From an uncultured beta proteobacterium (GTDB lineage Bacteria; Pseudomonadota; Gammaproteobacteria; Burkholderiales; SG8-39), in the NCBI GenBank assembly GCA_903859155.1, contig CAIOLO010000126.1:1-64000 (forward strand): a stretch of 64,000 bases of DNA. Direction: 5' to 3'. The notes under the pieces were generated by a model that saw nothing but the letters and a program-made list of their open reading frames with translations, was not told the DNA's origin and searched no databases. Both the position numbers and the translations under genes were made by a program. This document shows, one piece after another, positions 20,317 through 35,454 of the stretch. Each line of letters begins with the position of its first letter. The first letter of the stretch is position 1.

Positions 20317-21774
20317 CTAGCGATACAACTCCGGATACTTTGCCCTGACCTTTGCCGCCAGTTCCGGCGAGCTCTCGCACACCTTGGGAAAGGTGTCGAG
20401 CAGCTCGTAAGGACGACAGGCATCGATGATCATGCGCGAGTTGTAGAGCATGTTCTTGTCGCGCACCAGGGTATCCAGGCGCGACGACCAGCAGTGATCC
20501 AGCACCGTGGTGCGCGATTTCGGATCGCAGCGCGTGCCCATGGCCCAGATCACATCGTGGATGTCGGTAGGGTCGACATCGTCATCGACAACCACAATCC
20601 AGCGGCTGATGTAACCCACCGAGGCCAGTTGCGAGGCCACCACGCCCACTTGCGTCGAATGGCCAAAATAACGCTGTTTGATCGAAAGCACGCAAAAGGT
20701 GCGTCCGCCACCCGCCTGGTGCAACCAGGCGCCGCGCACATCGGGAATGCCGGCCGCCTCCAGTGCGTCGAGCAGGCCGGCTGAACGCAGGAAGCAGCGC
20801 TCGAACAGGTGCGAATGCGGCGGCTTCTGGCTGGCCGCGCAGGTGAGGATGGGTTGATTGCGATGGTAGATGCGCTTGATGTGGATCAGCGGTTCTTCCC
20901 TGGCATCGCCGGCGTAATAACCGTGCCACTCGCCGAACGGACCTTCCAGGGCCGTTTCCGTCGCACTGATCTCGCCTTCGATCACGATTTCAGAGCGCGC
21001 CGGAAAGGGCAGGCCGGTGACTTCGCCTTCGATGAGTTCCAGCGGGCGATCCATCAGTCCGCCGGCCCATTCGTATTCCGGCATGGCGTCGGGCATGGTG
21101 AAACCGGCCGCCAGGTAGGTAATGGGATCACAGCCGATGATGATCACCACCGGGCAGGGTTTGCCCGCCTTGAGATATTTATCGCGCTGAATGCGGCCTT
21201 GTTTGCCATTGGAAATGTAGGACGTGCAGGTATCCGGACCGATCATCTGCACGCGGTAGGTGCCCACATTGATGCGGCCGCTTTCTGGATCGCGCGTCAC
21301 CACGCCGCAGGCGGTGCCGATGTACCTTCCGCCGTCTTCCTCGTGGTGGATGGGGACCGGCAGCCGGGTCAGGTCGACCGCGCCGTCGCGCAGCACGTTC
21401 TCCAGCACCGGGCCTTCCTTGACGATTTTCGGCGCAATGCGCTTGAAGCCTTTCTTGATGTTCTTGCGGAAATGGTCGAGCATTTCCTTGCGGTGTGTGG
21501 ACAGCGAGGGTTCCATGCCGAGCACGGTGGCCAGCCGGAAAGGCGAACCGAACATGCCGTAGGCGACGCGGTGCCCCTTGGGGTAATCTGGAATGCCATC
21601 GAACAGCAGCATCGGCGCTTTTTCCACCTTCTGGCGGTAGAGCACTTCGGTCACCGCCCCCAGTTCGCGGTTCCAGTGGGCGCCTTCGACCCGCGCCAGT
21701 TCTCCGCGAGCCTCGACAGTGGCGATGAATTCGCGCAGATCATTCTGCGCGGTGGCGGTGGATTCGTTGCTCAA
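20317..21774 (-). CDS. UbiD-family decarboxylase
   Basis: UbiD-type (de)carboxylase of 485 residues, full family length. Visible are the prenylated-FMN-binding region (INVGTYR, GKQGRIQRDKYLKAGKPCPV, IIGCDP) and the catalytic acid segment ALEGPFGEWHGYY. The family removes CO2 from aromatic or alpha,beta-unsaturated acids and needs prFMN from UbiX; no ubiX is in the window. Start TTG 21774 is chosen because GGAGG sits five bases upstream; a TTG at 21795 lacks a ribosome site. It is divergent from the ABC-transporter/oxygenase array and shares its palindrome-rich promoter region, so joint control by the IclR protein is likely (inference). True UbiQ biosynthesis is less likely in this context. 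Confidence 0.9.
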   Translation of the reverse strand: MSNESTATAQNDLREFIATVEARGELARVEGAHWNRELGAVTEVLYRQKVEKAPMLLFDGIPDYPKGHRVAYGMFGSPFRLATVLGMEPSLSTHRKEMLDHFRKNIKKGFKRIAPKIVKEGPVLENVLRDGAVDLTRLPVPIHHEEDGGRYIGTACGVVTRDPESGRINVGTYRVQMIGPDTCTSYISNGKQGRIQRDKYLKAGKPCPVVIIIGCDPITYLAAGFTMPDAMPEYEWAGGLMDRPLELIEGEVTGLPFPARSEIVIEGEISATETALEGPFGEWHGYYAGDAREEPLIHIKRIYHRNQPILTCAASQKPPHSHLFERCFLRSAGLLDALEAAGIPDVRGAWLHQAGGGRTFCVLSIKQRYFGHSTQVGVVASQLASVGYISRWIVVVDDDVDPTDIHDVIWAMGTRCDPKSRTTVLDHCWSSRLDTLVRDKNMLYNSRMIIDACRPYELLDTFPKVCESSPELAAKVRAKYPELYR

Positions 21775-21816
21775 ATGGTCCTCCGGGGTCGACAAAATAC
21801 ATTGTCCGCTGGTCTC

Positions 21817-21941: not shown

Positions 21942-23000
21942 ATGAGACAGGCCTTCGCGCGCCGATGGGCATGCGTTCTGTCCGGGCTGGTGCTGGCGTA
22001 CTCGTTTGCGCCGAGTGTGATCGCACAGACCGTTCCCGAGCGCAATGCCGCTGTTTATATGTACAAAGGGGCGGATCGCGACCAGCGCCTGCTGGAGCGC
22101 GCACGCAAGGAAGGCTCGTTGACCTTCTACACATCGCTCGCCACCACCGAATCGATTCCGCTCGGCCAGGCCTTCGAGAAGAAGACCGGCGTCAAGGTGC
22201 AGTTGTGGCGCGCACTGAGCGAAGAGGTGGTCCAGCGAACCCTCAACGAGGCGCGCGGCAAGCGCCACACTGTCGATGTGATCGAAACCAATGGCCCGGA
22301 AGTCGAGTCTCTTGCCAGGGAGCAACTCACCGCCGAGTTCTACACGCCGCATACGGCAAAATATCCACCCTGGGCGATACCCAGCCACCGCCTGTGGGTG
22401 AGCGACCGGATGGATTTTTTCGTCGTGGCCTTCAATACCGGCAAGGTCAAGCGCGAGGAGATCCCCACGACCTACGAGGGGTTTGGCGATGCGCGGTGGA
22501 AGGGCCGTCTCGGCATCGAGGCCACCGATCAGGAGTGGCTCGCCGGGGTGGTTCAGCTGTGGGGTAGCGAACGCGGCCTGAGTTTTTTCCGCAAGCTGGT
22601 CGCCTTGCGTCCCGATGTCAGGAAAGGCCATGTGTTGCTCTCGCAATTGGTGGCAGCCGGTGAAATACCGGTGGCATTGACTGCTTATGCTTCCAACGCG
22701 GAATCGTCCAAGCGCACCGGCGCGCCCATCGACTGGGTGGCGTTGGAACCGGTGGTCGTGCGTCCGCAGGGCCTTGCGCTGGCCCGCAATGCGCCCAACC
22801 CGAATGCCGCCTTGCTGTTTGCCGATTACCTGTTGTCGCCCGAAGGCCAGCAGTTCTACGAATCGGTAGGGCGGTTCCCGGCCAGCCGCGGCGTACGCGG
22901 CGCGGGCGACCCCTCCAAGGTCACCATGGTGGATTCCCAGACCGCTGCCAACGAATCGGAAAAGTGGCAGAAAGTCTGGGGCGAGATGCTCAAGCGATGA
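21942..23000 (+). CDS. ABC transporter periplasmic binding protein (Fe3+/AEP-type, family 1)
   Basis: Type II periplasmic binding protein of 352 residues, similar in pattern to FbpA/AfuA-type solute receptors. It has a signal peptide ending near VIA-Q (28) after a strong AAAGGAGGAGG site. The landmarks DRDQRLLERARKEGSLTFYTS, FEKKTGVKVQLWRA and ARWKGRLGIEATDQEW recur in the two other binding proteins of this array (30667, 33087), so all three are paralogues. It is the first gene of the array and probably supplies the fused permease. Typical FbpA iron-binding Tyr pairs are not obvious, so an organic ligand is as likely as iron. Confidence 0.88.
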   Translation: MRQAFARRWACVLSGLVLAYSFAPSVIAQTVPERNAAVYMYKGADRDQRLLERARKEGSLTFYTSLATTESIPLGQAFEKKTGVKVQLWRALSEEVVQRTLNEARGKRHTVDVIETNGPEVESLAREQLTAEFYTPHTAKYPPWAIPSHRLWVSDRMDFFVVAFNTGKVKREEIPTTYEGFGDARWKGRLGIEATDQEWLAGVVQLWGSERGLSFFRKLVALRPDVRKGHVLLSQLVAAGEIPVALTAYASNAESSKRTGAPIDWVALEPVVVRPQGLALARNAPNPNAALLFADYLLSPEGQQFYESVGRFPASRGVRGAGDPSKVTMVDSQTAANESEKWQKVWGEMLKR

Positions 23001-23045: not shown

Positions 23046-23861
23046 GTGAATATTGCCGAAGTCCAGGACGGGTGGATGCTGGTGCTGGCCGTTTTTGCGC
23101 TGGGCGCGAAGCACGGCATGGATCCGGATCACCTGGCGACCATCGACGGACTGACGCGCTTCAATGCACGGCGGCGGCCGCGTCTCGCGCGCTGGTCGGG
23201 GTGCCTGTTTTCTCTGGGTCATGGTGGAGTAGTGACCCTGGTGGCCGGCCTGGTCGCCTCGCTGTCCGGAGGTTTTGAAATCCCGGCGTGGCTGGAGCAT
23301 ACCGGCGCGTGGATATCGATTGTGTTTCTCGCGCTGCTGGGCGTCACCAATATTGCTGCGGTATTCCGCGCACCAAGGGACCAGGTCGTGGCAAGCGTGG
23401 GCATGCGCGCGCGCCTGCTCAGCCGCTTCGCCCAGACCGATCATCCCGTGGTGATCGCTTCGGTAGGCGCTGCGTTCGCGTTGTCCTTTGACACCTGGAG
23501 CCAGACGGCGCTGTTTTCGATCACCGCACAGCAACTGGCCGGCTGGACCTTTTCGGTTCTGCTGGGCCTGGTATTCATGTCCGGCATGATGGCCGCAGAC
23601 GGGTTGAATGGCCTGTGGGTGGCGCGCATGCTCGCCAGGGCCGATCGGCGCGCACTGATCGCCTCGCGCGTCATGAGCCTGGTAATCGGCGCTTTGGGCA
23701 TCACCATTGCCGCGCTCGGGATCGCGCGCTATGTCGCACCGGATGTCGGCGCGCTCATGAACGGCAGCAGCCTGTATCTCGGCATTGGCATGCTGGGTTT
23801 GCTGCTGACCAGCTACGCCGTGGCCACAAGGATTACGGACGGCCCCGGGGTGCGGGCATGA
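23046..23861 (+). CDS. NiCoT/NicO-like nickel-cobalt transporter homologue
   Basis: Polytopic membrane protein of 271 residues with about seven hydrophobic segments. It keeps the three NiCoT signatures in variant form: HGMDPDHLATID (canonical HAxDADHI; His23, Asp26, Asp28 and His29), FSLGHGGVVTL (canonical FxxGHSSVV) and LSFDTWSQTALFS (canonical LGxDTATE). It probably moves Ni2+ or Co2+, though the altered signatures leave selectivity open. The start is GTG 23046; ATG 23076 is an alternative. Its last bases overlap the IclR start (ATGA), so they are translationally coupled. Its place beside a His-rich, EutA-bearing permease suggests a metal link. Confidence 0.78.
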   Translation: MNIAEVQDGWMLVLAVFALGAKHGMDPDHLATIDGLTRFNARRRPRLARWSGCLFSLGHGGVVTLVAGLVASLSGGFEIPAWLEHTGAWISIVFLALLGVTNIAAVFRAPRDQVVASVGMRARLLSRFAQTDHPVVIASVGAAFALSFDTWSQTALFSITAQQLAGWTFSVLLGLVFMSGMMAADGLNGLWVARMLARADRRALIASRVMSLVIGALGITIAALGIARYVAPDVGALMNGSSLYLGIGMLGLLLTSYAVATRITDGPGVRA

Positions 23862-24703
23862 GCGCCAGCGCGCGCGCATCGGTTACGCCCGCGCGGGCGC
23901 GGCGCAGAATGCGCCCAGGCGGCGCCCGCACGCGTCTTTCCTCGGTCACCAATGCGCTGCGCCTGCTCAAGGTATTTTCCGACCAGGATTCCGAGATCGG
24001 CATCAGCGACCTGGCAAGGCGGGTGAATCTTGCAAAGAGCACGGTGCATCGCCTGGCCTCCTCGCTGGTGGAGGAGGGCATGCTCGAGCAGACCGAGAGG
24101 GAGGGGAAGTATCGCCTCGGCCTGACACTTTTTGAACTGGGTTCTCTGGTTCGCCGCAAGATGGATGTGACCAACGAGGCCCGGCCGTACCTGCGATCGC
24201 TCTCCGAGAGCACCGGGGAAACGATTCAACTGGCGGTACTGGAGCAATCCTCGGCCCTTTATATCAACGTGATCGAAAGCCAGCGCGCGCTGCGCATGAG
24301 CTACCAGGTCGGCACGCGCGCGCCCCTTTACTGCACCGCTGTAGGCAAAGTGCTGCTGGCGCATGCGGAGGCGCAGATTTTTGCCGCTACCGTGGCACAG
24401 GGCCTGACCGCCCTGACCGCGGCGACCATCACCGATGCGGACAGTCTGCGCCGCGAAGTGGTGCTCATCGGCAACCGCGGGTATGCGCTCGAGGACGAGG
24501 AGGCGGAACCGGGTTTGCGCGGCGTTGCCGCGCCGGTGCGTGATTTTTCCGGGCTGGCCGTCGCCGCAATCGGCATATCCGGGCCGACTCACCGCATGTC
24601 GAAAAAGGTTCTGCTCGGTTACGCCCGCGACCTGCTGGATGTGAGTAATGCCGTCTCGCAGCGCCTGGGTTATCAGACGCCCCTGCTGGCGCGTCGGGCT
24701 TGA
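23858..24703 (+). CDS. IclR-family transcriptional regulator
   Basis: Regulator of 281 residues. The N-terminal winged helix spans about residues 28-85 (SVTNALRLLKVF, ISDLARRVNLAKSTVHRL, EREGKYRLGLTLFELG), and the C-terminal IclR effector domain carries GTRAPLYCTAVGKVLLA and RGVAAPVRDFSG. A basic, Arg/Ala-rich 25-residue N-terminal tail precedes the helix. It overlaps the NiCoT-like gene by four bases and ends five bases before the fusion gene. IclR proteins commonly control aromatic-acid catabolism with small aromatic or glyoxylate-like effectors. The likely target is the palindrome cluster at 21817-21877. Confidence 0.93.
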   Translation: MSASARASVTPARARRRMRPGGARTRLSSVTNALRLLKVFSDQDSEIGISDLARRVNLAKSTVHRLASSLVEEGMLEQTEREGKYRLGLTLFELGSLVRRKMDVTNEARPYLRSLSESTGETIQLAVLEQSSALYINVIESQRALRMSYQVGTRAPLYCTAVGKVLLAHAEAQIFAATVAQGLTALTAATITDADSLRREVVLIGNRGYALEDEEAEPGLRGVAAPVRDFSGLAVAAIGISGPTHRMSKKVLLGYARDLLDVSNAVSQRLGYQTPLLARRA

Positions 24704-24708
24704 GCAGC

Positions 24709-27700
24709 ATGGCACAGACACCGACTCCGGACAGCCCGCGCGGCCACAGCATCTCCGACCACCAGTACGGTGAGGACTTCGCGCACACCCACGATGGCGT
24801 GGATGCCGACCACGACCATGATCGCTTCGATGGCGACGGCCCGCTGGAGGAAAACCCGATATGGATCGCCGACCATGTGACGCTCACCAGCGTGGGCATG
24901 GACATCGGCTCTTCCGGAACTCAGGTGGTGTTCTCGAAAATGAACCTGCGCCGTTTCGGCGAGGAACTGTCCAGCCGCTATTACGTGGTCTCGCGCGAGA
25001 CCTTGTATCAGTCGCCCGTGACGCTGACGCCCTACCGCAGCGAGGAGTTGATCGACGATGCAGCCCTTGGGGCAATCATCGATTCCGCTTATGCGGCGGC
25101 CGGACTGCATCCGGACGCCATCGATACCGGCGTGGTGATCCTCACCGGCGAGGCGCTGCGTCGCGAAAATGCGGAGGCGATCGCCGCCATCCTGGCCGAG
25201 CAGGGCGGTGAGTTCGTCTGCGCAACGGCCGGCCATCATATGGAGGCCATGCTGGCCGCCTACGGTTCGGGCGCGGCGCGCGCTTCGCACGATACCGGCA
25301 AACGCATCCTGAACATAGATATTGGCGGTGGCACCACCAAACTGGCGCTGGTTGACCGGGGCAAGGTGCTTGCCACGGCAGCCGTCCACATTGGCGGGCG
25401 GCTGCAGGTAGTCGATGGCGAACACCGCATCGTGCGGCTCGATCCGGCCGGCAAATATCACGCAAAAAGGGCCGGATTCGCCTGGGAACGTGGTGATCTG
25501 GCAGCCGCTGCCGACATGGATCGCGTCGCCGAGGGCATGGCCGACACGCTGGTCGCCGCGCTGGCCGGCGCCGTTGCCGCGCAGGCTTTGCCCCATGAAA
25601 TCGAGCATCTGTATCTGACCGAGCCGATTCGCGACTGGGGCAGCATCGAAGGCGTAATGTTCTCAGGCGGCGTTGGCGAGTACGTCTACGCCCGCGAAGA
25701 GCGGGACTTTGGCGACATGGGGCGGCGCCTGGGACAGGCGGTGCGGCGTCGAATCGACTCGGGTGCACTGCCCTGGATGCTGCTGCCGGCCGGTGAATGC
25801 ATGCGCGCCACCGCACTGGGGGCCTCCGAATACAGCGTGCAGTTGAGCGGCAATACCACTTATATCTCCAGCCCCGGCGAGTTGCTGCCCAGGCGCAATC
25901 TGCAGGTGTTGCAGCCAGCCATCGAATTTCAGGAACACATCGACGCCGACGCCCTGGCAAATGCCATCCGCGAGCATTTCACCGCTTTTGACCGGATCGA
26001 AGGGGAGGGTGAAGTCGCGCTTGCGTTCCGCTGGACGGGCGCGCCGTCCTATGAGCGTATCGCCGCATTCGCCCACGGCATAGAGCGCGGCATGAGCAAC
26101 AGCATCGCCGCTGGCGCACCCTTGTTCATCATGCTCGATGGCGACATCGCCCAGACCCTGGGGGCCATCCTGCGCGAAGAACTCGGTGTGGCCAATGAAA
26201 TCCTGGTGATCGACGGTGTCACGCTGCAGGATTTCGACTACATCGACCTGGGCCGGGTGCGCCTGCCCTCGCAAACGGTGCCGGTGACCATCAAATCACT
26301 GGTGTTCAGCGAGGACCCGCGCGCGCCTGACGGGCGCCAGCATCTGGATCAAGGGCCCGCGCATACGCATGATCATGGTCATGCGCATGACCATGATCAT
26401 CCGCATGCACACTCCCACGGTCCTGCACAAGCGCACCGGCACGGCCATTCCCATGCCCACGGTGATGAACATCACCACGCCCATGATGACCACACCCATG
26501 CGCACACCGGCGCGGATAATGGCCATTCCCATGGCGATGGGGGAAATGGACATTCCCATGGCGGCGGCCACGGTGCCGAAGACGCGCCCTCCGCGGGTTT
26601 CTGGGCGCGCCTGGATCCCAAATGGCTGATTTTTGCCGTCTGCGTGGCCTTCGTAGCATGGCTCGCCCTGGTGCCGCTGGGATTCCTGCTGTGGCAGAGC
26701 TTTTTCACCCCGGAAACGGCCACCGTCGCCGCAGAGTTCACTTTCGACAATTACAAGGTCGCCTACTCCAGTGTCGAGACGCTGCAACTGTTTCTCAACT
26801 CGGCGCAATTCGCAGCGGGGGCGGCGCTGTTTGCATTTCTGGTAGGCACTTTTCTAGCGTGGGTCAACGAGCGCACCAATACGCCGTTCAAGTCGCTGTT
26901 CTTCGGGCTTTCGATCATTCCCCTGGTGATTCCCAGCATTCTCTTCACCGTCTCCTGGATACTGCTGGCCAGTCCGAAAATCGGCATTCTCAACCAGGTC
27001 CTGCAGACCTGGTTCGGAACGGAGCGGGTGTTTTTCAATATCTATTCGATGTCCGGCATGGTCTGGGTGGACGGGCTGCACTATTCCCCGGTGGCATTCC
27101 TGCTGATGACCGCCGCCTTTCGTTCCATGGACCCGTCGCTGGAGGAGTCCGCGCTGATGAGCGGCGCCTCGGTTTTTCAGATCGCCCGGCGCATCACACT
27201 GAAGCTGGCCTGGCCGGCGGCCCTGGCTTCGCTGCTGATTCTGTTCGTGCGCGCCATCGAATCATTCGAGGTGCCTGCACTGCTGGGACTGCCGGTCGGA
27301 ATCCACGTCTATACCTCGGCGATCTTCGAGGCGATACGGCAATATCCGAGCAAGGTGGGCCTGGCTTCGGCCTACGGCATCACCCTTTTGGCGATCGCCG
27401 GGCTGGGTCTTTATTTTCAGTCGCGCCTGTCCAGCCAGGGCAACCGCTACTCCACAGTGACCGGCAAGGGGTTCCGGCCGCGGCCCATGGACCTGGGCCG
27501 CTGGCGCTATTTCACCGCGGCCATTTTCATCGCCTACCTGCTGGTGGTGGTGGTGTTTCCGTTCCTGGTGCTGGTGTGGTCCTCGCTGCACAAGTTCTAC
27601 AGCGTGCCTTCAATGGAAGCGTTAAAGACGCTGACCATCGAGCCTTACCGGCGCGTATTCGAGTTTCCGGCGCTGGCGGGCGCGGTTTGGAACAGCCTGT

Positions 27701-28296
27701 TCCTGTCGCTGGGTGCCGCCACCATGATCATGCTGGTGACCTCGGTGATCTGCTGGATCGTGGTTAAAAGCCGCATGCGCGGCCGGGTATGGCTGGACAA
27801 TCTGGCCTCCCTGCCGCTGGTTTTTCCGGGGCTGGTCCTGGGCCTGTCGATCATGATCTTTTATCTTTATGTCGATATCGGCGTGTACGGCACCTTCTGG
27901 ATCATGTTCATCGCCTACGTGACGCGCTTCCTCCCCTATGGGCTGCGCTACAACATGACCTCGATGCTGCAGATCCACAAGGAACTGGAGGAATCCGCGG
28001 CAATGAGCGGTGCGGCCTGGGCGGCGACCTTCTGGCGCATCGTGCTGCCGCTGCTCAAACCGGGCCTGGTCGCCGGATGGATCTACATCGTCATCGTTTC
28101 GATTCGTGAACTGTCGAGCTCCATCCTGCTCTACAGCCCGGGCAAGGAAGTCGTCTCCATCATCATCTGGGAATTCTGGCAGAACGGCCAGTACGTCGAA
28201 CTGTCGGCGTTGGGCGTCATGATGATTGTGTCGCTGTTCTGCTTCGTGATGCTGGCGCAGTATGCGGCCGGAAAACTTGGCATCAAAGAGGTTTAG
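24709..28296 (+). CDS. EutA-like ATPase / His-rich linker / ABC permease fusion
   Basis: Single open frame of 1195 residues with three parts. Residues about 50-535 match EutA, the ATPase that reactivates B12-dependent ethanolamine ammonia-lyase, end to end: phosphate-1 DIGSSGTQ (Asp65), phosphate-2 NIDIGGGTTK (Asp204), adenosine-type SGGVGEY (319-325) and the EutA tail VPVTIKSL (524-531). Residues 545-621 hold 28 His in 77 positions; a smaller His/Asp cluster lies at 26-40. From about 625 there are 12 TM helices with two EAA loops (near 812 and 1094), as in FbpB/ThiP-type two-domain permeases. No in-frame ATG lies between the linker and the first TM helices, so separate translation of the permease is unlikely. 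The ATPase gene follows directly. No EutB/EutC is present. The function of the fused EutA is unknown; nucleotide- or metal-dependent gating is a hypothesis. A TTG at 24700, overlapping the IclR stop, is an alternative start. Confidence 0.88.
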   Translation: MAQTPTPDSPRGHSISDHQYGEDFAHTHDGVDADHDHDRFDGDGPLEENPIWIADHVTLTSVGMDIGSSGTQVVFSKMNLRRFGEELSSRYYVVSRETLYQSPVTLTPYRSEELIDDAALGAIIDSAYAAAGLHPDAIDTGVVILTGEALRRENAEAIAAILAEQGGEFVCATAGHHMEAMLAAYGSGAARASHDTGKRILNIDIGGGTTKLALVDRGKVLATAAVHIGGRLQVVDGEHRIVRLDPAGKYHAKRAGFAWERGDLAAAADMDRVAEGMADTLVAALAGAVAAQALPHEIEHLYLTEPIRDWGSIEGVMFSGGVGEYVYAREERDFGDMGRRLGQAVRRRIDSGALPWMLLPAGECMRATALGASEYSVQLSGNTTYISSPGELLPRRNLQVLQPAIEFQEHIDADALANAIREHFTAFDRIEGEGEVALAFRWTGAPSYERIAAFAHGIERGMSNSIAAGAPLFIMLDGDIAQTLGAILREELGVANEILVIDGVTLQDFDYIDLGRVRLPSQTVPVTIKSLVFSEDPRAPDGRQHLDQGPAHTHDHGHAHDHDHPHAHSHGPAQAHRHGHSHAHGDEHHHAHDDHTHAHTGADNGHSHGDGGNGHSHGGGHGAEDAPSAGFWARLDPKWLIFAVCVAFVAWLALVPLGFLLWQSFFTPETATVAAEFTFDNYKVAYSSVETLQLFLNSAQFAAGAALFAFLVGTFLAWVNERTNTPFKSLFFGLSIIPLVIPSILFTVSWILLASPKIGILNQVLQTWFGTERVFFNIYSMSGMVWVDGLHYSPVAFLLMTAAFRSMDPSLEESALMSGASVFQIARRITLKLAWPAALASLLILFVRAIESFEVPALLGLPVGIHVYTSAIFEAIRQYPSKVGLASAYGITLLAIAGLGLYFQSRLSSQGNRYSTVTGKGFRPRPMDLGRWRYFTAAIFIAYLLVVVVFPFLVLVWSSLHKFYSVPSMEALKTLTIEPYRRVFEFPALAGAVWNSLFLSLGAATMIMLVTSVICWIVVKSRMRGRVWLDNLASLPLVFPGLVLGLSIMIFYLYVDIGVYGTFWIMFIAYVTRFLPYGLRYNMTSMLQIHKELEESAAMSGAAWAATFWRIVLPLLKPGLVAGWIYIVIVSIRELSSSILLYSPGKEVVSIIIWEFWQNGQYVELSALGVMMIVSLFCFVMLAQYAAGKLGIKEV
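26341..26571 (+). repeat. His-rich low-complexity coding repeat (linker of fusion protein)
   Basis: The DNA is a run of CAT/CAC codons alternating with Asp, Gly, Ala, Ser and Thr codons (HDH, HAH, HSH, HGH units) with repeated CATGATCATG-like words. It encodes residues 545-621 of the fusion protein. His-x-His tracts of this kind bind Ni2+, Co2+ or Zn2+ in metallochaperones and transporters. Confidence 0.9.
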
Positions 28297-28341: not shown

Positions 28342-29463
28342 GTGCTTAGCGTCAAAGGTCTTTTCACCGAATACCCCAACGACCGCGGACAGACCGTGAA
28401 GGCGGCGCAGGATGTCGCCTTCGAAGTGCCCGAGGGCAAGCTGTTTACGCTGCTCGGGCCCAGCGGCAGCGGCAAGACCACAACGCTGCGCTCGATCGCG
28501 GGCCTGGAGCGGCCGGTCGCCGGAGACATCAGCGTCGACAACCGCGTGGTGTACTCATCCTCGAAAAACGTGTTCGTGCCGCCGAACCGGCGCAACTTCG
28601 GCATGGTTTTCCAGTCCTACGCCATCTGGCCGCACATGAACGTGTTCCAGAATGCCGCGTTTCCACTGCAGGTGCGCGCCAACCCCCCCGGGGAGAAGGT
28701 AATCAAGGAAAAGGTCATGCGAGTGCTGGCCGCGGTGGGGTTGGAGGAACTTGCGGGGCGGGACGCCACGCGGTTGTCCGGCGGCCAGCAGCAGCGACTG
28801 GCGCTGGCGCGTGCCATTGCGATGGAACCCCGGCTGCTGTTGCTGGACGAGCCTTTGTCCAACCTGGACGCCAAACTGCGCGAGCGCATGCGCTTCGAGC
28901 TGAAACGGCTGCAAAGCGAATTCAAGCTGACCACTGTCTATGTCACACACGACCAGAGCGAGGCACTGGCCCTGTCGCACCAGATTGCCGTCATGAGCGA
29001 AGGGCGCATCGTGCAACTGGGCACGCCCAGGGAAATCTACGAGCGGCCGCGCAACAAATTCGTGGCGGATTTCGTCGGTTCCAGCAATTTCATCGACGCG
29101 TCGGTGCGCGCGGCCCAGGGCGAGCCCGGCGCCTACCGCGTGACGAGCGCGCTCGGGGACCTCGACGTGCGCTCGGTGGGCAGGCTCGCCCCCGGCGACA
29201 AGGCGGTCATCGCCATCCGTCCGGAGGATGTGACACTGGCTGACCAGGCGCTCCCGGGCGGACAGAATGCCTGCCAGGGCAGGGTGGAGGCCAAGGTGTT
29301 TCTCGGCGAATGCGTCGATTTCCAGGTGCGCATCGGCGAGACGCTGCTGCTCGCGCGTGCTCATCCTTCGTTGCGCACGCCGGTCGGCGAAAACATTCAT
29401 TTGACGATGGATCCGGAAAAATGCATCGCGATACCCAACACCGTGGAAACGGCGCCGCAGTGA
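28342..29463 (+). CDS. ABC transporter ATP-binding protein (FbpC/PotA type)
   Basis: ABC ATPase of 373 residues. It has Walker A GPSGSGKTT (39-47), the Q-loop in MVFQSYAIWPHM, the signature LSGGQQQR, Walker B LLLLDEPLSNLDA, the H-loop in VYVTHDQSEA, and a C-terminal TOBE domain (about 285-365). The GTG start has GGGAGA eight bases upstream and lies 45 bases after the fused permease, so the two are surely partners at the inner membrane. The type imports iron, thiamine, polyamines or phosphonates; the substrate here is not readable from sequence. Confidence 0.95.
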   Translation: MLSVKGLFTEYPNDRGQTVKAAQDVAFEVPEGKLFTLLGPSGSGKTTTLRSIAGLERPVAGDISVDNRVVYSSSKNVFVPPNRRNFGMVFQSYAIWPHMNVFQNAAFPLQVRANPPGEKVIKEKVMRVLAAVGLEELAGRDATRLSGGQQQRLALARAIAMEPRLLLLDEPLSNLDAKLRERMRFELKRLQSEFKLTTVYVTHDQSEALALSHQIAVMSEGRIVQLGTPREIYERPRNKFVADFVGSSNFIDASVRAAQGEPGAYRVTSALGDLDVRSVGRLAPGDKAVIAIRPEDVTLADQALPGGQNACQGRVEAKVFLGECVDFQVRIGETLLLARAHPSLRTPVGENIHLTMDPEKCIAIPNTVETAPQ

Positions 29464-29494: not shown

Positions 29495-30613
29495 ATGGCC
29501 AAAGACGCAGTGGTATCGGACGATCTGGCGAAGAAATTCGCCACGGAAAAGGACACCCCTTACACCCGCTGGGTGAAGAACGAGGGCCTGGACATCATCG
29601 GCGCGCATTACGTCCCGAACCTGCACAGTGTCGAACTCAAGCCCTGGGTGCGTCGCGAGGCACGCGGCGTCTACCTCAATCACGAGGCATCGAGGACCTC
29701 GAATGACTGCTATGTCTGCGAGATCCCCTCGGGAGGTAAGCTGCCGCCGCAGCGCCAGCTGTTCGAGGAAATGATCATGATCCTCGACGGACGTGGATCA
29801 ACCACGGTATGGAATGACGCCGGCAAACGCATCACCTTCGAATGGAAAGCCGGTGCGTTGTTCGCAATTCCGCTCAACACCTGGCACCAGCACTTCAACG
29901 GTTCGGGCCGGGAGCCGGCCCGCTATGTGGCGGTGACAAACGCACCGTCTGTGATCAACCTCTATGAAGAACCCGAGTTCGTATTCAACACAAGCTACGA
30001 CTTCAAGAACCGCTTTGCGGGCGAACCCGATTATTTCAGCAACAAGGGCGAGCAAAAGGGGCTGCTGCTGGAGACCAACTTCGTCGCAGACGCAGTCAAC
30101 CTGCCGCTGATCAGCGCAAAGGAGCGCGGTGCCGGCGGCGGGCATATCCGCTTCAACATGGCCAAAGGCTCGATGAACAGCCATATTTCCCAGTTTCCCA
30201 TCGGCACCTACAAAAAGGCGCACGCGCACGGTCCCGGAGCGCATGTGATCATCCTGACCGGCGAGGGTTACTCATTGATGTGGCCTGAGGGCGAGGCGCC
30301 GAAGCGCTACGAATGGCAGGTCGGTTCGATGATCGTGCCGCCGGCCGGCTGGCTGCACCAGCACTTCAATACCGGGACCACGCCCGCGCGTTATCTGGCC
30401 TTCAAGCATGAGGGGGTGGCGCTGCGCAATACCCAGGGCGTGCCCAAGGCCTGGATCAGCAAGCGCCTGGGCGGGGACCAGATCGATTATGCGGACGAAA
30501 AACCGCTGATCCGGCAGCTTTTCTCCGAAGCGCTGGCCAAACACGGACTGCAATCGCGCATGGAGGAGGCTTACAAGGCCGAACTGGCCGATTTGCCACC
30601 TGTCACGGGGTAA
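29495..30613 (+). CDS. Bicupin protein with HQHFN motifs
   Basis: Two-cupin protein of 372 residues. Cupin 1 (about 60-150) has QRQLFEEMIMILDGRG, with Gln where metal-binding His are expected, then TWHQHFNGSG. Cupin 2 (about 230-325) has HAHGPGAHVIILTGEG and WLHQHFNTG, so it can bind metal with an extra His in place of the usual Glu. The HQHFN motif recurs in the two single cupins downstream (31891, 32476). The family resembles ring-cleaving or gentisate-type bicupins only in fold. It lies 31 bases after the ATPase and has no signal peptide, so it acts in the cytoplasm, probably on the imported substrate. Confidence 0.82.
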   Translation: MAKDAVVSDDLAKKFATEKDTPYTRWVKNEGLDIIGAHYVPNLHSVELKPWVRREARGVYLNHEASRTSNDCYVCEIPSGGKLPPQRQLFEEMIMILDGRGSTTVWNDAGKRITFEWKAGALFAIPLNTWHQHFNGSGREPARYVAVTNAPSVINLYEEPEFVFNTSYDFKNRFAGEPDYFSNKGEQKGLLLETNFVADAVNLPLISAKERGAGGGHIRFNMAKGSMNSHISQFPIGTYKKAHAHGPGAHVIILTGEGYSLMWPEGEAPKRYEWQVGSMIVPPAGWLHQHFNTGTTPARYLAFKHEGVALRNTQGVPKAWISKRLGGDQIDYADEKPLIRQLFSEALAKHGLQSRMEEAYKAELADLPPVTG

Positions 30614-30666: not shown

Positions 30667-31749
30667 ATGAGGCAAAACCAAAGCATCAAAGCCATCTGGG
30701 CTGGCTGCACGCTGGCACTTGCCGGTCTGGCGCTGCTCGGCAGCAGCGGCGCAACCGCGCAGGCCAGGGCGGTACCCGACTCACCGTCGGCGGCATTGGC
30801 GAACTACAGCGGCGCGGACCGGCAGCAGCGGCTGGTTGAAGGCGCAAAAAAAGAAGGCGAGGTCAGCGTCTACAACTCGGCGCCGGTTGATGACATGAAG
30901 ATTTTTGCCGGGGCTTTCGAAAAGAAATACGGGATCAAGGTCAAGGTGTGGCGGTCCAGTTCGGAAAATATCGTGCAAAGGGCGGTCACCGAAGCACGCG
31001 CCGGCCGCTTCGAGGTCGATGTTGTCGAAACCAATGCGCCGGAGATGGAGGCGCTTTCCCGGGAAAGGCTGCTGCAGGAGGTGAAGTCGCCTTACCTTCA
31101 GGATTTGATTCCACAGGCCCTGCCGCCCCATCGCGAATGGATAGGAACGCGGCTCAACATGTTTACCGCCGCGTACAACACCAGACTGGTCAAGAAGGAA
31201 GATCTGCCGAAAACCTATGAAGACCTCCTCAATCCCAAGTGGAAAGGGCGGCTGGGAATCGAATCGAGCGATCTGGACTGGTTTGCCGCCGTTGTCGGCG
31301 ACATGGGTGAAGCCAAGGGGCTCAAGCTGTTTCGCGACATCGTGGCGACCAATGGCATTTCCGTGCGTACCGGCCACACCCTGCTGGTGAATCTTGTGGT
31401 ATCGGGGGAAATTCCGCTGGCACTGACCATTTACAACTACAAGGCCGAACAGTTGAAAAATGACGGCGCACCCATAGACTGGTTCGTGATGCAGCCCGGA
31501 CTCGCCCGTCCCCAGGGGGTCGGCGTCGCGCGCCGCGCGCCGCATCCGAATGCGGCCATCCTGTTCCATGATTTCATGCTCTCGGATGCGCAGGAAATGT
31601 TCATCAAGCGCGATTTCGTGCCCACCAGCAAGAAGATCAACACGCCATTGAATAAATTCCCGTTCCGCTTTATTGATCCAAAAATTGCGCTGGATGAGAA
31701 TGCAAAGTGGTCAAAGCTTTATCGCGAGATTATCGGCGCCGCGAAGTAA
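30667..31749 (+). CDS. ABC transporter periplasmic binding protein (paralogue 2)
   Basis: Periplasmic binding protein of 360 residues with a signal peptide ending near ATA-Q (31), after a GGGAGGAG ribosome site. Shared paralogue segments: DRQQRLVEGAKKEGEVSVYNS, FEKKYGIKVKVWRSSS, NPKWKGRLGIESSDLDWFA and SVRTGHTLL. It is closer to the 33087 protein than to the 21942 one. A strong hairpin directly after its stop may protect its mRNA. It probably serves the fused permease as an alternative receptor. Confidence 0.88.
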   Translation: MRQNQSIKAIWAGCTLALAGLALLGSSGATAQARAVPDSPSAALANYSGADRQQRLVEGAKKEGEVSVYNSAPVDDMKIFAGAFEKKYGIKVKVWRSSSENIVQRAVTEARAGRFEVDVVETNAPEMEALSRERLLQEVKSPYLQDLIPQALPPHREWIGTRLNMFTAAYNTRLVKKEDLPKTYEDLLNPKWKGRLGIESSDLDWFAAVVGDMGEAKGLKLFRDIVATNGISVRTGHTLLVNLVVSGEIPLALTIYNYKAEQLKNDGAPIDWFVMQPGLARPQGVGVARRAPHPNAAILFHDFMLSDAQEMFIKRDFVPTSKKINTPLNKFPFRFIDPKIALDENAKWSKLYREIIGAAK

Positions 31750-31890: not shown

Positions 31891-32445
31891 ATGTCCAACG
31901 AGTCGCATTACCACAGCAAGAAAGACCGGATCTTCGTCCGAGCCATAGCCGGCGCCTACAGCCTGAAGGACGAACTCACGCGACTTCGCGCCCTGCCTCG
32001 GGTGCGCAAGGGTTCCGAGATCAAGTTCCAGGATGGTCCCCAGGCCTATAGCCGGCATTATGTCGAACCCAAGGACGGCATTACCCAGACCCTGCACATT
32101 CACCTGGAGGAATACGGTCCAGGCGGTAAATCGCAAAAGCACGGCCACGTCAACGAGGCGGCGTTCTACATCCTCGATGGCACAGGTTACGAAATCCACG
32201 ACGGCGTGCGCTACGACTGGCAGGCCGGCGATATTGCGATTGTGCACAACAACTGCGTGCACCAGCATTTCAACGCCGATGCCGACAAGCCGGCCCGCGC
32301 ACTGGTACTGAAGACCAAGCCCATGTACATGTTCATGAACATGCTGTTCCAGTCGACCGTGGAGCCACGGCCCACCGAGGCGGCCCCGGGCGGAAAGAAT
32401 TTTGTCGTGCGCGAGCGCGAAGAAGACCTCAACCACGCAAAGTAA
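31891..32445 (+). CDS. Cupin-domain protein (HQHFN family)
   Basis: Single cupin of 184 residues. The metal site is visible as HGHVNEAAFYILDGTG (His84, His86, Glu89) and VHQHFNADADKPAR (His124). A 141-base leader precedes the ATG, with ACAGGAGCAGCA before it. It is a cytoplasmic protein with no signal peptide. It shares the HQHFNADxDKPxR signature with the next gene and a shorter form with the bicupin. It is probably a dioxygenase or isomerase acting with the Rieske enzyme (inference). Confidence 0.85.
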   Translation: MSNESHYHSKKDRIFVRAIAGAYSLKDELTRLRALPRVRKGSEIKFQDGPQAYSRHYVEPKDGITQTLHIHLEEYGPGGKSQKHGHVNEAAFYILDGTGYEIHDGVRYDWQAGDIAIVHNNCVHQHFNADADKPARALVLKTKPMYMFMNMLFQSTVEPRPTEAAPGGKNFVVREREEDLNHAK

Positions 32446-32475: not shown

Positions 32476-33090
32476 ATGGCCTGGACTGAAGCAAAAGCGT
32501 GGATGCGCGGCAAGACAACCGGAAAAATCTACCAAGACCTCCTCGATGACGCGACCAACGCGCCGGTGCGCAACGCGCGCCGCAAGAAGGTAGTGCGTCC
32601 CGAAGACATGCCCTGGGAGATGGCGCGCCAGGGATTGCTGAAGCACCTGATCAGCGAACAGATGAATACGCGCATGGAGACGGTGGACTCCTACATGCAG
32701 ATCATCCCGCCTGGCAGCAAGTCGGGAAAGCACCGCCACCTGGCCGAGGAGTGCCTCTACGTGCTGGAAGGACGCGGCTACGACCTGCACCAGGATTGCG
32801 ACGTCGAAATTACCGACACCTACCACTGGACGCCCCAGGAAGAGGTCAAGCGCTACGAGTGGGAGGCCGGCGACGTGATCTATATCCCGCCGAACACCAT
32901 ACACCAGCACTTCAATGCCGACCCGGACAAACCGGTGCGCCTGATATCCGCCATCAACCGCATATTCAAGAACAGCGGTCTCAATGACCTGGAGCAACTT
33001 GAGGATGCGCCCGAATACGACCCGGCGGTGGTGCTGAGCGCGGAAGCGGTGCAACGCTACCTCAAGGGCAAGGTCAAGGAGCCGGCGTGA
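32476..33090 (+). CDS. Cupin-domain protein (HQHFN family)
   Basis: Single cupin of 204 residues with HRHLAEECLYVLEGRG and IHQHFNADPDKPVR, so the His/His/Glu/His metal site is complete. A 20-residue insertion (DCDVEITDTYHWTPQEEVKR) lies between the two cupin motifs. The start follows AAGGAGATAAC. It ends in a 4-base overlap with the GTG start of the third binding protein, so translation is coupled. It pairs with the preceding cupin as a probable heteromer or tandem duplicate. Confidence 0.85.
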   Translation: MAWTEAKAWMRGKTTGKIYQDLLDDATNAPVRNARRKKVVRPEDMPWEMARQGLLKHLISEQMNTRMETVDSYMQIIPPGSKSGKHRHLAEECLYVLEGRGYDLHQDCDVEITDTYHWTPQEEVKRYEWEAGDVIYIPPNTIHQHFNADPDKPVRLISAINRIFKNSGLNDLEQLEDAPEYDPAVVLSAEAVQRYLKGKVKEPA

Positions 33091-34130
33091 AAAAGGCAAT
33101 CGTCGCATTGCGGCAATCGGCGGCGGCATGCGCCGTCGCACTGTTCGCGGCGGCTGCATGGGGACAGACACCGCTGGCGACCTACGAGGGTCCGGACCGG
33201 ATGCAGCGCATTGTCGCCGAAGCAAAAAAGGAGGGCTCCCTCAGCCTGTATACCTCCTTTGCCGCCACCGACCTGCCGACGCTGATCCCACCGTTCGAGA
33301 AAAAATACGGGATCAAGGTCAATGTATGGCGTGCGAGCACCACCAGCGTATTGCAGCGGACGGTGACCGAAGCCGCGGCAAAGCGCTTCGAAGTGGACGC
33401 CATCCACATCAGCGGCCCGGAGATGGAGGCGCTCAATCGCGAGCAACTGCTGCAAGCGGTGGTGTCACCCAGCTACCGGTTCCTGTTGGCCGGCGCGGTG
33501 CCCAAGCACCATGCCTGGGCGGCAACGCTGCTTACAGTCTTCGTGCAGGCCTACAATACCAATGCGGTGAAAAAGCAGGACCTCCCCAAATCCTTTTCAG
33601 ATCTGCTTGATCCGAAATGGAAGGGCAAACTGGGTATCGAGTCCGAAGACCAGGACTGGTTCGCGACCGTGGTGACCGGCATGGGAGAGGAAAAAGGCCT
33701 GGCGCTGTTCCGCGAGATTGCGCGCCGGAACGCCGTCTCGGTGCGCACCGGGCACACCCTGCTCAATAACATGGTGGTGGCCGGGGAAGTCCCGCTGGCG
33801 CTCACACTGTACAACTACATGCCCGAATCGGCCAAACAAAAGGGCGCGCCGGTGGACTGGTTCACGCTTGACCCGGTGGTGGCGCGCTCGAACGCGATCG
33901 GGGTTGCGCGCCGCGCGCCGCGTCCGCACGCCGCGCTTCTTTTTCACGATTACATGCTCGGAGAGGCGCAGGATCTGCTGGTGCAGATGAACTACGTGCC
34001 GACCAACAGCAACGCCGTTTCGCCGATGAAGAACGTCAACATCAAACTGATCGATCCCAACCTCATGCTCGACCAGCGTGACAAATGGAACAAAGCCTAC
34101 GACAGCGTCTTCGGCAGGCGCGCACCCTGA
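33087..34130 (+). CDS. ABC transporter periplasmic binding protein (paralogue 3)
   Basis: Third periplasmic binding protein of the array, 347 residues, with a GTG start overlapping the cupin stop (GTGA) and AAGGAG six bases upstream. A signal peptide ends near AWG-Q (26). Landmarks: DRMQRIVAEAKKEGSLSLYTS, FEKKYGIKVNVWRAS, DPKWKGKLGIESEDQDWFA and SVRTGHTLL. The three paralogues differ most in the ligand-facing segment after VDV, which suggests related but different substrates. Confidence 0.88.
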   Translation: MKKAIVALRQSAAACAVALFAAAAWGQTPLATYEGPDRMQRIVAEAKKEGSLSLYTSFAATDLPTLIPPFEKKYGIKVNVWRASTTSVLQRTVTEAAAKRFEVDAIHISGPEMEALNREQLLQAVVSPSYRFLLAGAVPKHHAWAATLLTVFVQAYNTNAVKKQDLPKSFSDLLDPKWKGKLGIESEDQDWFATVVTGMGEEKGLALFREIARRNAVSVRTGHTLLNNMVVAGEVPLALTLYNYMPESAKQKGAPVDWFTLDPVVARSNAIGVARRAPRPHAALLFHDYMLGEAQDLLVQMNYVPTNSNAVSPMKNVNIKLIDPNLMLDQRDKWNKAYDSVFGRRAP

Positions 34131-34170: not shown

Positions 34171-35454
34171 ATGATGAGCCAGGAACAAAACGACGCCCTG
34201 ACACGTACCGATCGGGGGACTTTGATGGGTGATCTCTTTCGCCGCTACTGGATACCGGCGCTGCACGACTTTGAGCTGCCGGAACCGGACTGCCCGCCGG
34301 TGCGGGTGAAACTGCTGGGCGAGTCGCTGATAGCCTTTCGCGACAGCGACAACCGCATCGGTCTGATGGACGAATTCTGCGCACACCGGGGAGTGTCACT
34401 CTGGTTTGGACGCAACGAGGAAAGCGGCCTGCGTTGCCCTTATCACGGCTGGAAATTCGACATCACCGGCCAGTGTGTCGACCTGCCCTCCGAAGGCGAG
34501 AACGGCCCGATGCGCAAGCGCACCAAGCTCACCTCCTACCCGTGCATAGAACAAGGCGGCGTCATCTGGACCTACATGGGGGCGCCGGAGCTGAAACCGG
34601 CGCCGCCGGGACTGGAGTGGGCCAATGTGACGGCAGAGCGCCGCTATATCTCCAAGCGTTTCCAGGAGTGCAACTACCTGCAGGCGATGGAGGGAGGTAT
34701 CGATTCCTCGCACGTGACTTTTCTTCACAGCGGTGCGCTCAAGACCGATCCGCTGTTCAAGGGTACCAAGGGAAATCAATACAACGAGCGCGACAAGATG
34801 CCGCACTTCGAGGTGGTGGAATTCGAAGGCGGACTGCTCATCGGTGCGCGCCGCAATGCCGATCATGGCAAGTACTACTGGCGCATTACGCCGTGGATCA
34901 TGCCGTTCTACACCGTCATTCCGCCGCGCGGAAGCTATCCGCTCGGCGCGCACGCATGGGTGCCGATTGATGACCACAACTGCTGGTCCTGGAGCATCAA
35001 CTACCACCCGGCCCGCGCCCTGTCCGCCGACGAGCGCAAGGCGATGGAGGACGGCATGGGGATCCACGTGAAAAACATCCCCGGCACCTTCATTACCTTG
35101 CAGAACAAGAGCAACAACTACATGATGGATCGCGCTGCGCAAAAGGCCGGAACCCAGTATTCCGGCATTGACGGCATAGGCATGCAGGACGCCTCTTTGC
35201 AGGAATCCATGGGGCCGATACAGAATCGCGCCAAGGAAAACCTCTGTCCGACCGATAAAGGCATTGTCATGGCAAGGCGCATGCTGCTGCAGGCCGCCGA
35301 GGCCAATCGCGATGGCAAACCGGTCATCGGTCTGGATCCGCAGGTGCAGCGGGTGCGTTCCTGCTCGATCGAGCTGAACCCCGAGGAGAATTACAAGGAC
35401 GCGGCGCGGCACGGACTGTTTGCGCCGCCGGGTACCAACCCGGTCAGCGTCTGA
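34171..35454 (+). CDS. Rieske non-haem iron aromatic ring-hydroxylating oxygenase
   Basis: Single-component-type oxygenase alpha subunit of 427 residues, like phthalate 4,5-dioxygenase or phenoxybenzoate dioxygenase oxygenases. The Rieske [2Fe-2S] site is CAH...CPYH (Cys70, His72, Cys89, His92). The mononuclear iron site is EGGIDSSHVTFLH (Asp178 bridging; His181 and His186). These enzymes need a reductase of the phthalate-reductase type, and none is in the window. It is the last gene of the array, followed by a good terminator. It probably attacks the imported aromatic acid; the ring substrate is not determinable by eye. Confidence 0.92.
   Translation: MMSQEQNDALTRTDRGTLMGDLFRRYWIPALHDFELPEPDCPPVRVKLLGESLIAFRDSDNRIGLMDEFCAHRGVSLWFGRNEESGLRCPYHGWKFDITGQCVDLPSEGENGPMRKRTKLTSYPCIEQGGVIWTYMGAPELKPAPPGLEWANVTAERRYISKRFQECNYLQAMEGGIDSSHVTFLHSGALKTDPLFKGTKGNQYNERDKMPHFEVVEFEGGLLIGARRNADHGKYYWRITPWIMPFYTVIPPRGSYPLGAHAWVPIDDHNCWSWSINYHPARALSADERKAMEDGMGIHVKNIPGTFITLQNKSNNYMMDRAAQKAGTQYSGIDGIGMQDASLQESMGPIQNRAKENLCPTDKGIVMARRMLLQAAEANRDGKPVIGLDPQVQRVRSCSIELNPEENYKDAARHGLFAPPGTNPVSV

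Follow-up and report, generated by a model that had tools for sequence, protein, structure and literature searches.

An EutA-like ATPase fused to an ABC permease in a small betaproteobacterial lineage belongs to a group of EutA-family proteins that accompany a bicupin

A single gene of an uncultured betaproteobacterium joins a EutA-like ATPase, through a His-rich linker, to an ATP-binding cassette (ABC) permease. It lies at positions 24709-28296 of a stretch of 64,000 nucleotides (hereafter, the window; assembly GCA_903859155.1, contig CAIOLO010000126.1, positions 1 to 64,000). The fusion is present in four genomes, and in relatives the ATPase and the permease are encoded by separate, adjacent genes. 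Proteins of this type co-occur with a bicupin, cupinA, and the genome of the window contains no EutB, the partner of classical EutA in ethanolamine ammonia-lyase (EAL). We tentatively propose, as a reading that is possible rather than probable, that the EutA-like protein uses ATP to mature or reactivate the bicupin and, in one of its three similarity classes (class A), stores metal on its His-rich ends.

Architecture of the fused gene

Translation of the gene gives 1195 residues plus the terminal stop, with zero internal stops. The Pfam profile EutA (PF06277) matches residues 58-533 with 386.5 bits (cut-off 27; E 2.5e-115) and spans profile positions 2-474 of 475, that is, the whole domain, while BPD_transp_1 (PF00528) matches in two stretches, the best at residues 710-903 (E 3.4e-16). 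The unbroken EutA-linker-permease frame described in the initial annotation is thus confirmed. With two modules in a single chain and an adjoining ATPase gene, the permease is of the FbpB type. The linker indeed holds 28 His, as first annotated, although its length, given then as 77 residues, is 104 when counted from the EutA C-terminal ...IKSL to ...DPKW before the first membrane helix. The linker and the next 60 codons contain zero ATG, with GTG codons at residues 532, 646 and 655, and a separate internal start in this gene appears unlikely from the sequence; in another of the fused genes, L071, the linker contains one ATG.

The full-length structural model has a mean predicted local distance difference test score (pLDDT) of 71.8 and a predicted template modelling score of 0.55, with pLDDT <50 at residues 534-630, and the linker is probably disordered. 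The helices of the model are compatible with 6+6 membrane spans, in line with the 12 transmembrane segments initially annotated, but a simple hydropathy plot gives 10 hydrophobic segments instead. Foldseek comparisons, besides the permease match described below, gave weaker matches to HgdC-type 1hux, PilM, GppA and EutJ, all of which we take to be ASKHA-type proteins. A PDB sequence search with the fusion retrieved 10 distinct matches at E 0.01, none called EutA, and an Rfam scan of the window at the gathering score gave no match of any kind, hence no riboswitch.

The ATPase domain appears distinct from classical EutA

A search of the whole genome of the window (98.67% complete; E. coli control positive) detected no EutB, which extends to the genome the initial observation that EutBC is absent nearby, with EutC not searched separately. 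Four NCBIfam EutA equivalogs match the protein, all below their cut-offs (313.5 vs 598, 251.6 vs 769, 221.4 vs 952 and 184.3 vs 799). For comparison, the classical set comprised nine loci, being all the EutA matches of other kinds that were found, and one archaeal plasmid locus from 25 plasmid records; all 10 adjoin EutB and EutC. In a tree of 68 rows, the 58 rows of the window's kind, L210 and L211 being counted among them, group apart from the 10 classical rows with support 91/93. By these comparisons, the EutA-like domain would not be of the EAL-reactivase type, and its group appears distinct from the EutBC-linked reactivases.

Among 98 genomes of the window's family, which were searched with the EutA part, EutB was found in 13, only 2 of which contain an EutA-like protein (Fisher p = 1). 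The other 11 of these EutB genomes lack an EutA-like match at E 1e-10, so that EAL without EutA may be common in this family; this fits an excerpt of PMC9426561, which reports an EAL that needs no EutA. In a phylum-wide sample, too sparse for this purpose, PF06277 was found in 6 of 398 (E 1e-20). A second, weak PF06277 match in the window's genome (L002, G000:C162:36148-36279) covers 44 profile positions with 27.4 bits in a 450-residue frame.

The EutA family remains the best match in kind, as shown by the whole-domain profile match, the phosphate and adenosine motifs and the C-terminal VPV..KSL, and the protein is a variant with another partner: it differs from EutA in the lack of EutB in the genome, its separate tree group, the bicupin, its own His/Asp-rich ends and, here, its fusion to a permease. 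The initial statement that no role of EutA is known except that of EAL reactivase is in accord with the same excerpt (PMC9426561), to which our sequence comparisons add that PF06277 also contains a group without EutBC. Such proteins can be annotated as EAL reactivating factors, for example in Phyllobacterium.

Co-occurrence and linkage with the bicupin

In the 98 family genomes, the EutA-like protein and the bicupin (alignment A2) were each found in 19, with 17 shared (Fisher p = 6e-15, which overstates the association because the test treats genomes as independent and both proteins occur together in 8 of 26 genera; moreover, most of the sequences behind the cupin profile came from the vicinity of EutA in the same 98 genomes). 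In the phylum-wide sample, the bicupin appeared in 1 of 398 (E 1e-40), the window's own genome. Three of the four genomes breaking the pattern are 77-82% complete, and the fourth, G073, is 97% complete with an apparently broken EutA. In G001, of the window's genus, NicO is encoded on the minus strand at the beginning of a contig, which would place the next genes off the contig. The G073 gene (L045:8793-9414) looks broken in that its N-terminal and later parts are in two frames and a middle stretch is missing.

Relatives were located on named genome contigs by two peptide patterns, giving 260, of which the best 80 were examined; these 80 loci are the closest ones and do not sample the family fairly. 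Aromatoleum toluclasticum and Pusillimonas noertemannii, both culturable, are among the carriers of the locus. A close linked cupinA was missing from 35 of the 80. We searched for the bicupin in the whole genomes of 17 of these 35, and in those of L102, with a partial linked cupinA, and L071, with a full one. The bicupin family was present in 18 of the 19 genomes, and in 16 of the 17 without a close cupinA, a search that had no matched EutA-less control; the sole miss was the genome of L101, and in four genomes (G850, G854, G855 and G865) the best score reached only the level of B-type cupins. The genome of L116 (G860, a bin of ~3.1 Mb) contains an expanded family, with 14 bicupin matches, one of them with an internal TGA.

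The EutA-like proteins fall into three similarity classes, and same-strand cupin pairs within 7 kb are mostly formed within a class (A-A 35, B-B 24, C-C 7), with 5 cross-class A-B pairs, 4.1 to 7.0 kb apart, and none in 64 of the 135 rows, partly owing to contig ends; the 135 rows include contigs present twice. In 20 of the 24 B pairs, the EutA-like and cupin matches are 31-132 bp apart. A mirror-tree comparison of EutA and nearest-cupin distances gave r = 0.44 for 73 pairs, against a maximum of 0.10 in 1000 permutations, but it carries little weight because some pairs are divergent neighbours, some contigs are present twice and relatedness was uncontrolled.

The bicupin has a dioxygenase-like fold

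A cupinA model built from 18 sequences had a pLDDT of 86. Foldseek placed oxalate decarboxylases first by E-value, and VIA-align placed salicylate 1,2-dioxygenase 2phd on top (Z 21.6, rmsd 3.2, 255 aligned), followed by a small margin by the gentisate-type 3bu7 (Z 21.1), MncA (20.0) and oxalate decarboxylase (19.6). On this model, cupinA is predicted to be a bicupin with the salicylate/gentisate-dioxygenase fold. H243, H245, H288 and H290 are invariant in the 18 sequences, all of them in the C-terminal barrel, and no His is invariant in the N-terminal barrel; we presume that the four fit a cupin metal site. Known salicylate/gentisate 1,2-dioxygenases have a three-His iron site in the N-terminal barrel. 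The likeness to these enzymes lies in the fold; cupinA differs in its low identity (12-18%) and in the barrel that carries its invariant His set.

The fusion looks like a local event

Among the best 80 of the 260 relatives, three further loci, L069, L070 and L071, carry the fusion, each as one open frame across both parts, in accordance with the architecture first annotated. The EutA parts of the fused relatives are 87% identical. L069 is apparently the same contig as G002:C163, and in the 98 family genomes a frame of fused length (1185 residues) was found only in this same-genus G002, besides the window's own genome. The linkers of the three loci have 71-88 residues with 21-30 His, and their sequences differ while the frame is kept. 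A chimeric assembly was rejected because four genomes carry the fusion, and linkers that vary in length and sequence among them, always in frame, speak against chance. In the tree, the four fused proteins make up one clade (100/99), as would be expected if the fusion arose once, in one small lineage. L069 and L070 are recorded as Bordetella parapertussis; their proteins group with the window's genome and a betaproteobacterial bin, and the names are probably misassigned.

Fusion could be scored in 78 of the 80 loci, the contigs of L116 and L138 ending before the frame does, with 3 fused and 75 unfused. In all 75 unfused loci the EutA-like protein has its own stop, and a view of EutA as built into a permease in essence is therefore not supported. 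Of these separate proteins, 73 have at least 6 His in the 90 residues that follow the EutA domain directly. A His/Asp-rich motif precedes the domain in 71 of the 80 relatives. A full-length permease on the same strand was found at 40 loci: at 27 of them (3 fused and 24 separate) it lies 205-427 bp after the EutA domain, and at the other 13 it is 1.2-5.7 kb away with other genes between. Thus, in 24 of the 37 unfused loci with such a permease, this starts 217-427 bp after the EutA domain. Given these His-rich tails and the close downstream permease, the linker is most simply read as the old EutA tail plus the old permease leader. Sequence comparison thus indicates that the fusion is a derived, local event.

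Other candidate fusions were rejected. The extra length of EutA frames of 768, 790 and 936 residues is an upstream open frame, neither permease nor cupin, and cupin frames of 1026 and 1065 residues, candidates for a cupin-EutA Rosetta stone, are upstream read-through without EutA.

The transporter and its gene neighbourhood

Table 1. Features of the fused gene and its surroundings in the window
Feature	Coordinates	Strand	Remarks
UbiD-type decarboxylase	20317-21795		
Solute-binding protein 1	21942..23000	+	ferric-binding-protein superfamily
NicO family nickel/cobalt transporter	23046..23861	+	contains HGMDPDH, presumably the HX4DH signature of the NicO family
IclR-type regulator	23855..24703	+	start codon not fixed
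Fused gene, 1195 residues	24709..28296	+	His/Asp-rich N-terminus, EutA-like ASKHA ATPase, His-rich linker, two-module ABC permease
N-terminal extension, 57 residues, His/Asp-rich	24709..24879	+	HTHDG...DADHDHD
EutA-like ATPase domain	24880..26307	+	PF06277 E 2.5e-115; DIGSSGTQ, NIDIGGGTTK and SGGVGEY, which we take to be phosphate and adenosine motifs
His-rich linker	26308..26616	+	low-confidence (predicted disordered) in model; counterpart of the His-rich C-terminal tail of separate relatives
FbpB-type two-module ABC permease	26617..28293	+	EESALMSGAS and EESAAMSGAA, one per module, presumably EAA-loop-like
ABC ATPase with TOBE_2 domain	28342..29463	+	presumed partner of the permease
Bicupin cupinA	29495..30613	+	predicted salicylate/gentisate 1,2-dioxygenase fold; C-terminal barrel His243/His245/His288 (and His290) invariant
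Solute-binding protein 2	30667..31749	+	
Single cupin B	31891..32445	+	
Single cupin C	32476..33090	+	
Solute-binding protein 3	33087..34130	+	
Rieske oxygenase with LigXa_C domain	34171..35454	+	

In Foldseek comparisons, the permease finds its best structural match in the FbpBC ferric importer of Thermus thermophilus (9j4r), with 22% identity and a TM-score by target of 0.87. The three solute-binding proteins belong to the ferric-binding-protein superfamily, and their best PDB matches are HitA and the periplasmic proteins of iron-utilization and iron ABC transporter systems. In the binding proteins of FbpABC systems, tandem Tyr are iron ligands; where the ferric-binding matches have the tandem Tyr, the aligned stretches here read TIYNYK, TLYNYM and TAYASN, with YNY in binding proteins 2 and 3 and no Tyr pair in protein 1. 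Because the tandem Tyr are not kept as such, an organic acid or a metal chelate may be as likely as iron for the importer cargo. The system thus resembles FbpB/FbpC in its two-module permease, cognate-looking ATPase and binding proteins, and differs from it in these Tyr-containing stretches and in the ASKHA ATPase at the N-terminus of the permease. The UbiD-type decarboxylase and the LigXa-like Rieske oxygenase that flank the cluster suggest the breakdown of an aromatic acid; class II aldolases are found in loci of relatives.

Four of the loci without a linked transporter that are considered below (L093, L100, L106 and L121) contain alphaproteobacterial EutA-like genes, 71-75% identical to that of the window, with no ABC transporter; ~0-5 kb after EutA they have what we take to be TctC-type binding proteins and part of a sulfopyruvate-type decarboxylase.

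Hints of metal handling

NicO is present in the window and in 14 of the 80 loci, a count without a fair background rate, since the Pfam scan (18 matches in 98 genomes) missed the NicO beside EutA in G002. In Phyllobacterium zundukense (L155), genes for a nickel/cobalt transporter of the HoxN/HupN/NixA kind and for NikR (Pfam) come after the cupin-EutA pair, and the gap between the two contains a NikR-like box at 1 mismatch; in L042 NicO and NikR stand beside the cupin-EutA pair. HypB, UreE and CooJ are His-rich nickel chaperones; the EutA-like proteins resemble them in having a His-rich tail on a presumed maturation protein with nickel genes near in some loci, and differ in their fold, which is that of an ASKHA ATPase here and of a G-protein there. 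From these gene contexts, nickel or cobalt may be taken as a lead only. A distant class C EutA-like protein (L041:8679-10259; 39% identical), encoded in a different gene setting, also has a His-rich C-terminal tail (21 His among 57 residues), which may have been gained independently.

Discussion

The proposal that the EutA-like protein serves the bicupin involves the following steps. The ATPase would use ATP to mature or revive the bicupin, probably by fitting or renewing its metal. The His/Asp-rich ends of class A would bind and store a divalent metal, with nickel or cobalt suggested by the NicO and NikR neighbours and iron also possible, and the adjoining FbpB-type ABC importer would supply either the pathway substrate or a metal. 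In one small lineage, loss of the stop between the ATPase and permease genes would have tethered the loader to the pore. We infer the client relation and the handling of metal, and likewise which metal it would be, the direction of its delivery, the substrate and what tethering might bring. Taken as a whole, the complete version, in which the ATPase inserts metal into or reactivates a ring-cleaving bicupin that may depend on nickel or cobalt, has its own His-rich store and is anchored to an importer in one lineage, is improbable. Among other options, the initial annotation had envisaged the loading or repair of a cofactor enzyme at the membrane; this comes close to the reading we favour if the bicupin, by a relation that we infer, is the enzyme.

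Besides the limits given above for the Fisher test, the whole-genome bicupin search and the NicO counts, several observations weigh against a bicupin helper that stores metal. The pattern is broken in the family genomes by G073 and G079, with only the EutA-like protein, and by G001 and G078, with only the bicupin. Among the 45 loci whose downstream flank is 6 kb or longer, seven (L089, L093, L100, L106, L110, L119 and L121) show no such permease, ATPase or close bicupin in the fetched stretch, although their genomes contain a bicupin at A-type level elsewhere. The linkage could mean a shared pathway only. In the tree, the 91/93 fork falls short of the tool's mark for firm support (95, and 80 for the first value), and several classical rows and L041 are on long branches, whose joins may be false according to the tool. 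As to metal, most loci have no nickel gene, the exact NikR consensus site (that of E. coli) is absent from 157 loci, NikR-like sites at 3 mismatches are below chance in L155 (6 vs 8.5), and a NikR-like site was not found in L042. His tails occur in 0 of 34 class B and 1 of 9 class C proteins, though both classes keep the cupin, so that metal storage cannot be the core function. Finally, according to an excerpt of PMC3483176, classical eut operons also encode a cupin, EutQ, without metal-binding His. As far as that excerpt goes, cupinA is like EutQ in being a cupin in the same operon as EutA, and differs in that EutQ is a short single cupin without metal His, while cupinA is a bicupin with an invariant His set.

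Other explanations have to be set beside this one. The EutA-like ATPase might be a pathway enzyme that uses ATP to phosphorylate, or activate in another way, an aromatic or carboxylic substrate after its import and ahead of the cupins and the Rieske oxygenase. We consider this unlikely but a serious contender: the gene setting has a catabolic look (Rieske LigXa_C, cupins and UbiD in the window, with class II aldolases in relatives), ASKHA relatives include small-molecule enzymes, and shared pathway membership would explain the linkage equally well; yet the nearest family is a protein-acting reactivase, and the pairing of the three EutA-like classes mostly with their own bicupin class is more like a relation of protein and client. 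That the EutA module acts as a gate or regulator of the ABC importer in response to nucleotide or metal state, as the initial annotation also considered, is a rather poor prospect in our judgement. The physical fusion in four genomes and the close downstream permease in 24 of 37 unfused loci speak for it, but at 7 of the 45 loci whose flank is long enough the fetched stretch contains the EutA-like gene and no transporter, which tells against a required gate, and no such permease is seen at 14 of the 15 loci whose EutA is of class B or C only (the exception is L061, and some contigs are short).

The fusion itself may be a neutral loss of the stop codon between neighbours, with both halves working as if apart. 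Its restriction to one small clade and the free drift of linker length and sequence among the four copies are what such a loss would leave, although a frame kept open in four genomes with EutA parts ~87% identical is at least tolerated; we think it unlikely too, to a similar degree as the pathway enzyme, and it is compatible with a helper of the bicupin. A true membrane-tethered reactivase of a B12-dependent EAL, in turn, is hardly credible. The Pfam EutA match and the intact motifs are in its favour, but the genome has no EutB, the scores lie under the cut-offs of the four matching NCBIfam equivalogs, the protein falls outside the EutBC-linked rows of the tree, and no association with EutB appears in the 98 genomes.

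We know of no description of the EutA-permease domain order, and in the open-licence PMC literature no paper was found that links EutA to a bicupin or a permease. EutA-like proteins of this type track the bicupin, not EutB, despite their possible annotation as EAL reactivases. If the complete version of our proposal is true, it would, to our knowledge, represent a second client class for EutA-type reactivases and the first dedicated chaperone for a cupin oxygenase. Should the client relation hold, the clients of reactivating ATPases would include metal-dependent cupins in addition to B12 enzymes, and the acquisition of metal by cupins would become testable with one gene pair, for which the fusion would be a natural linked construct.

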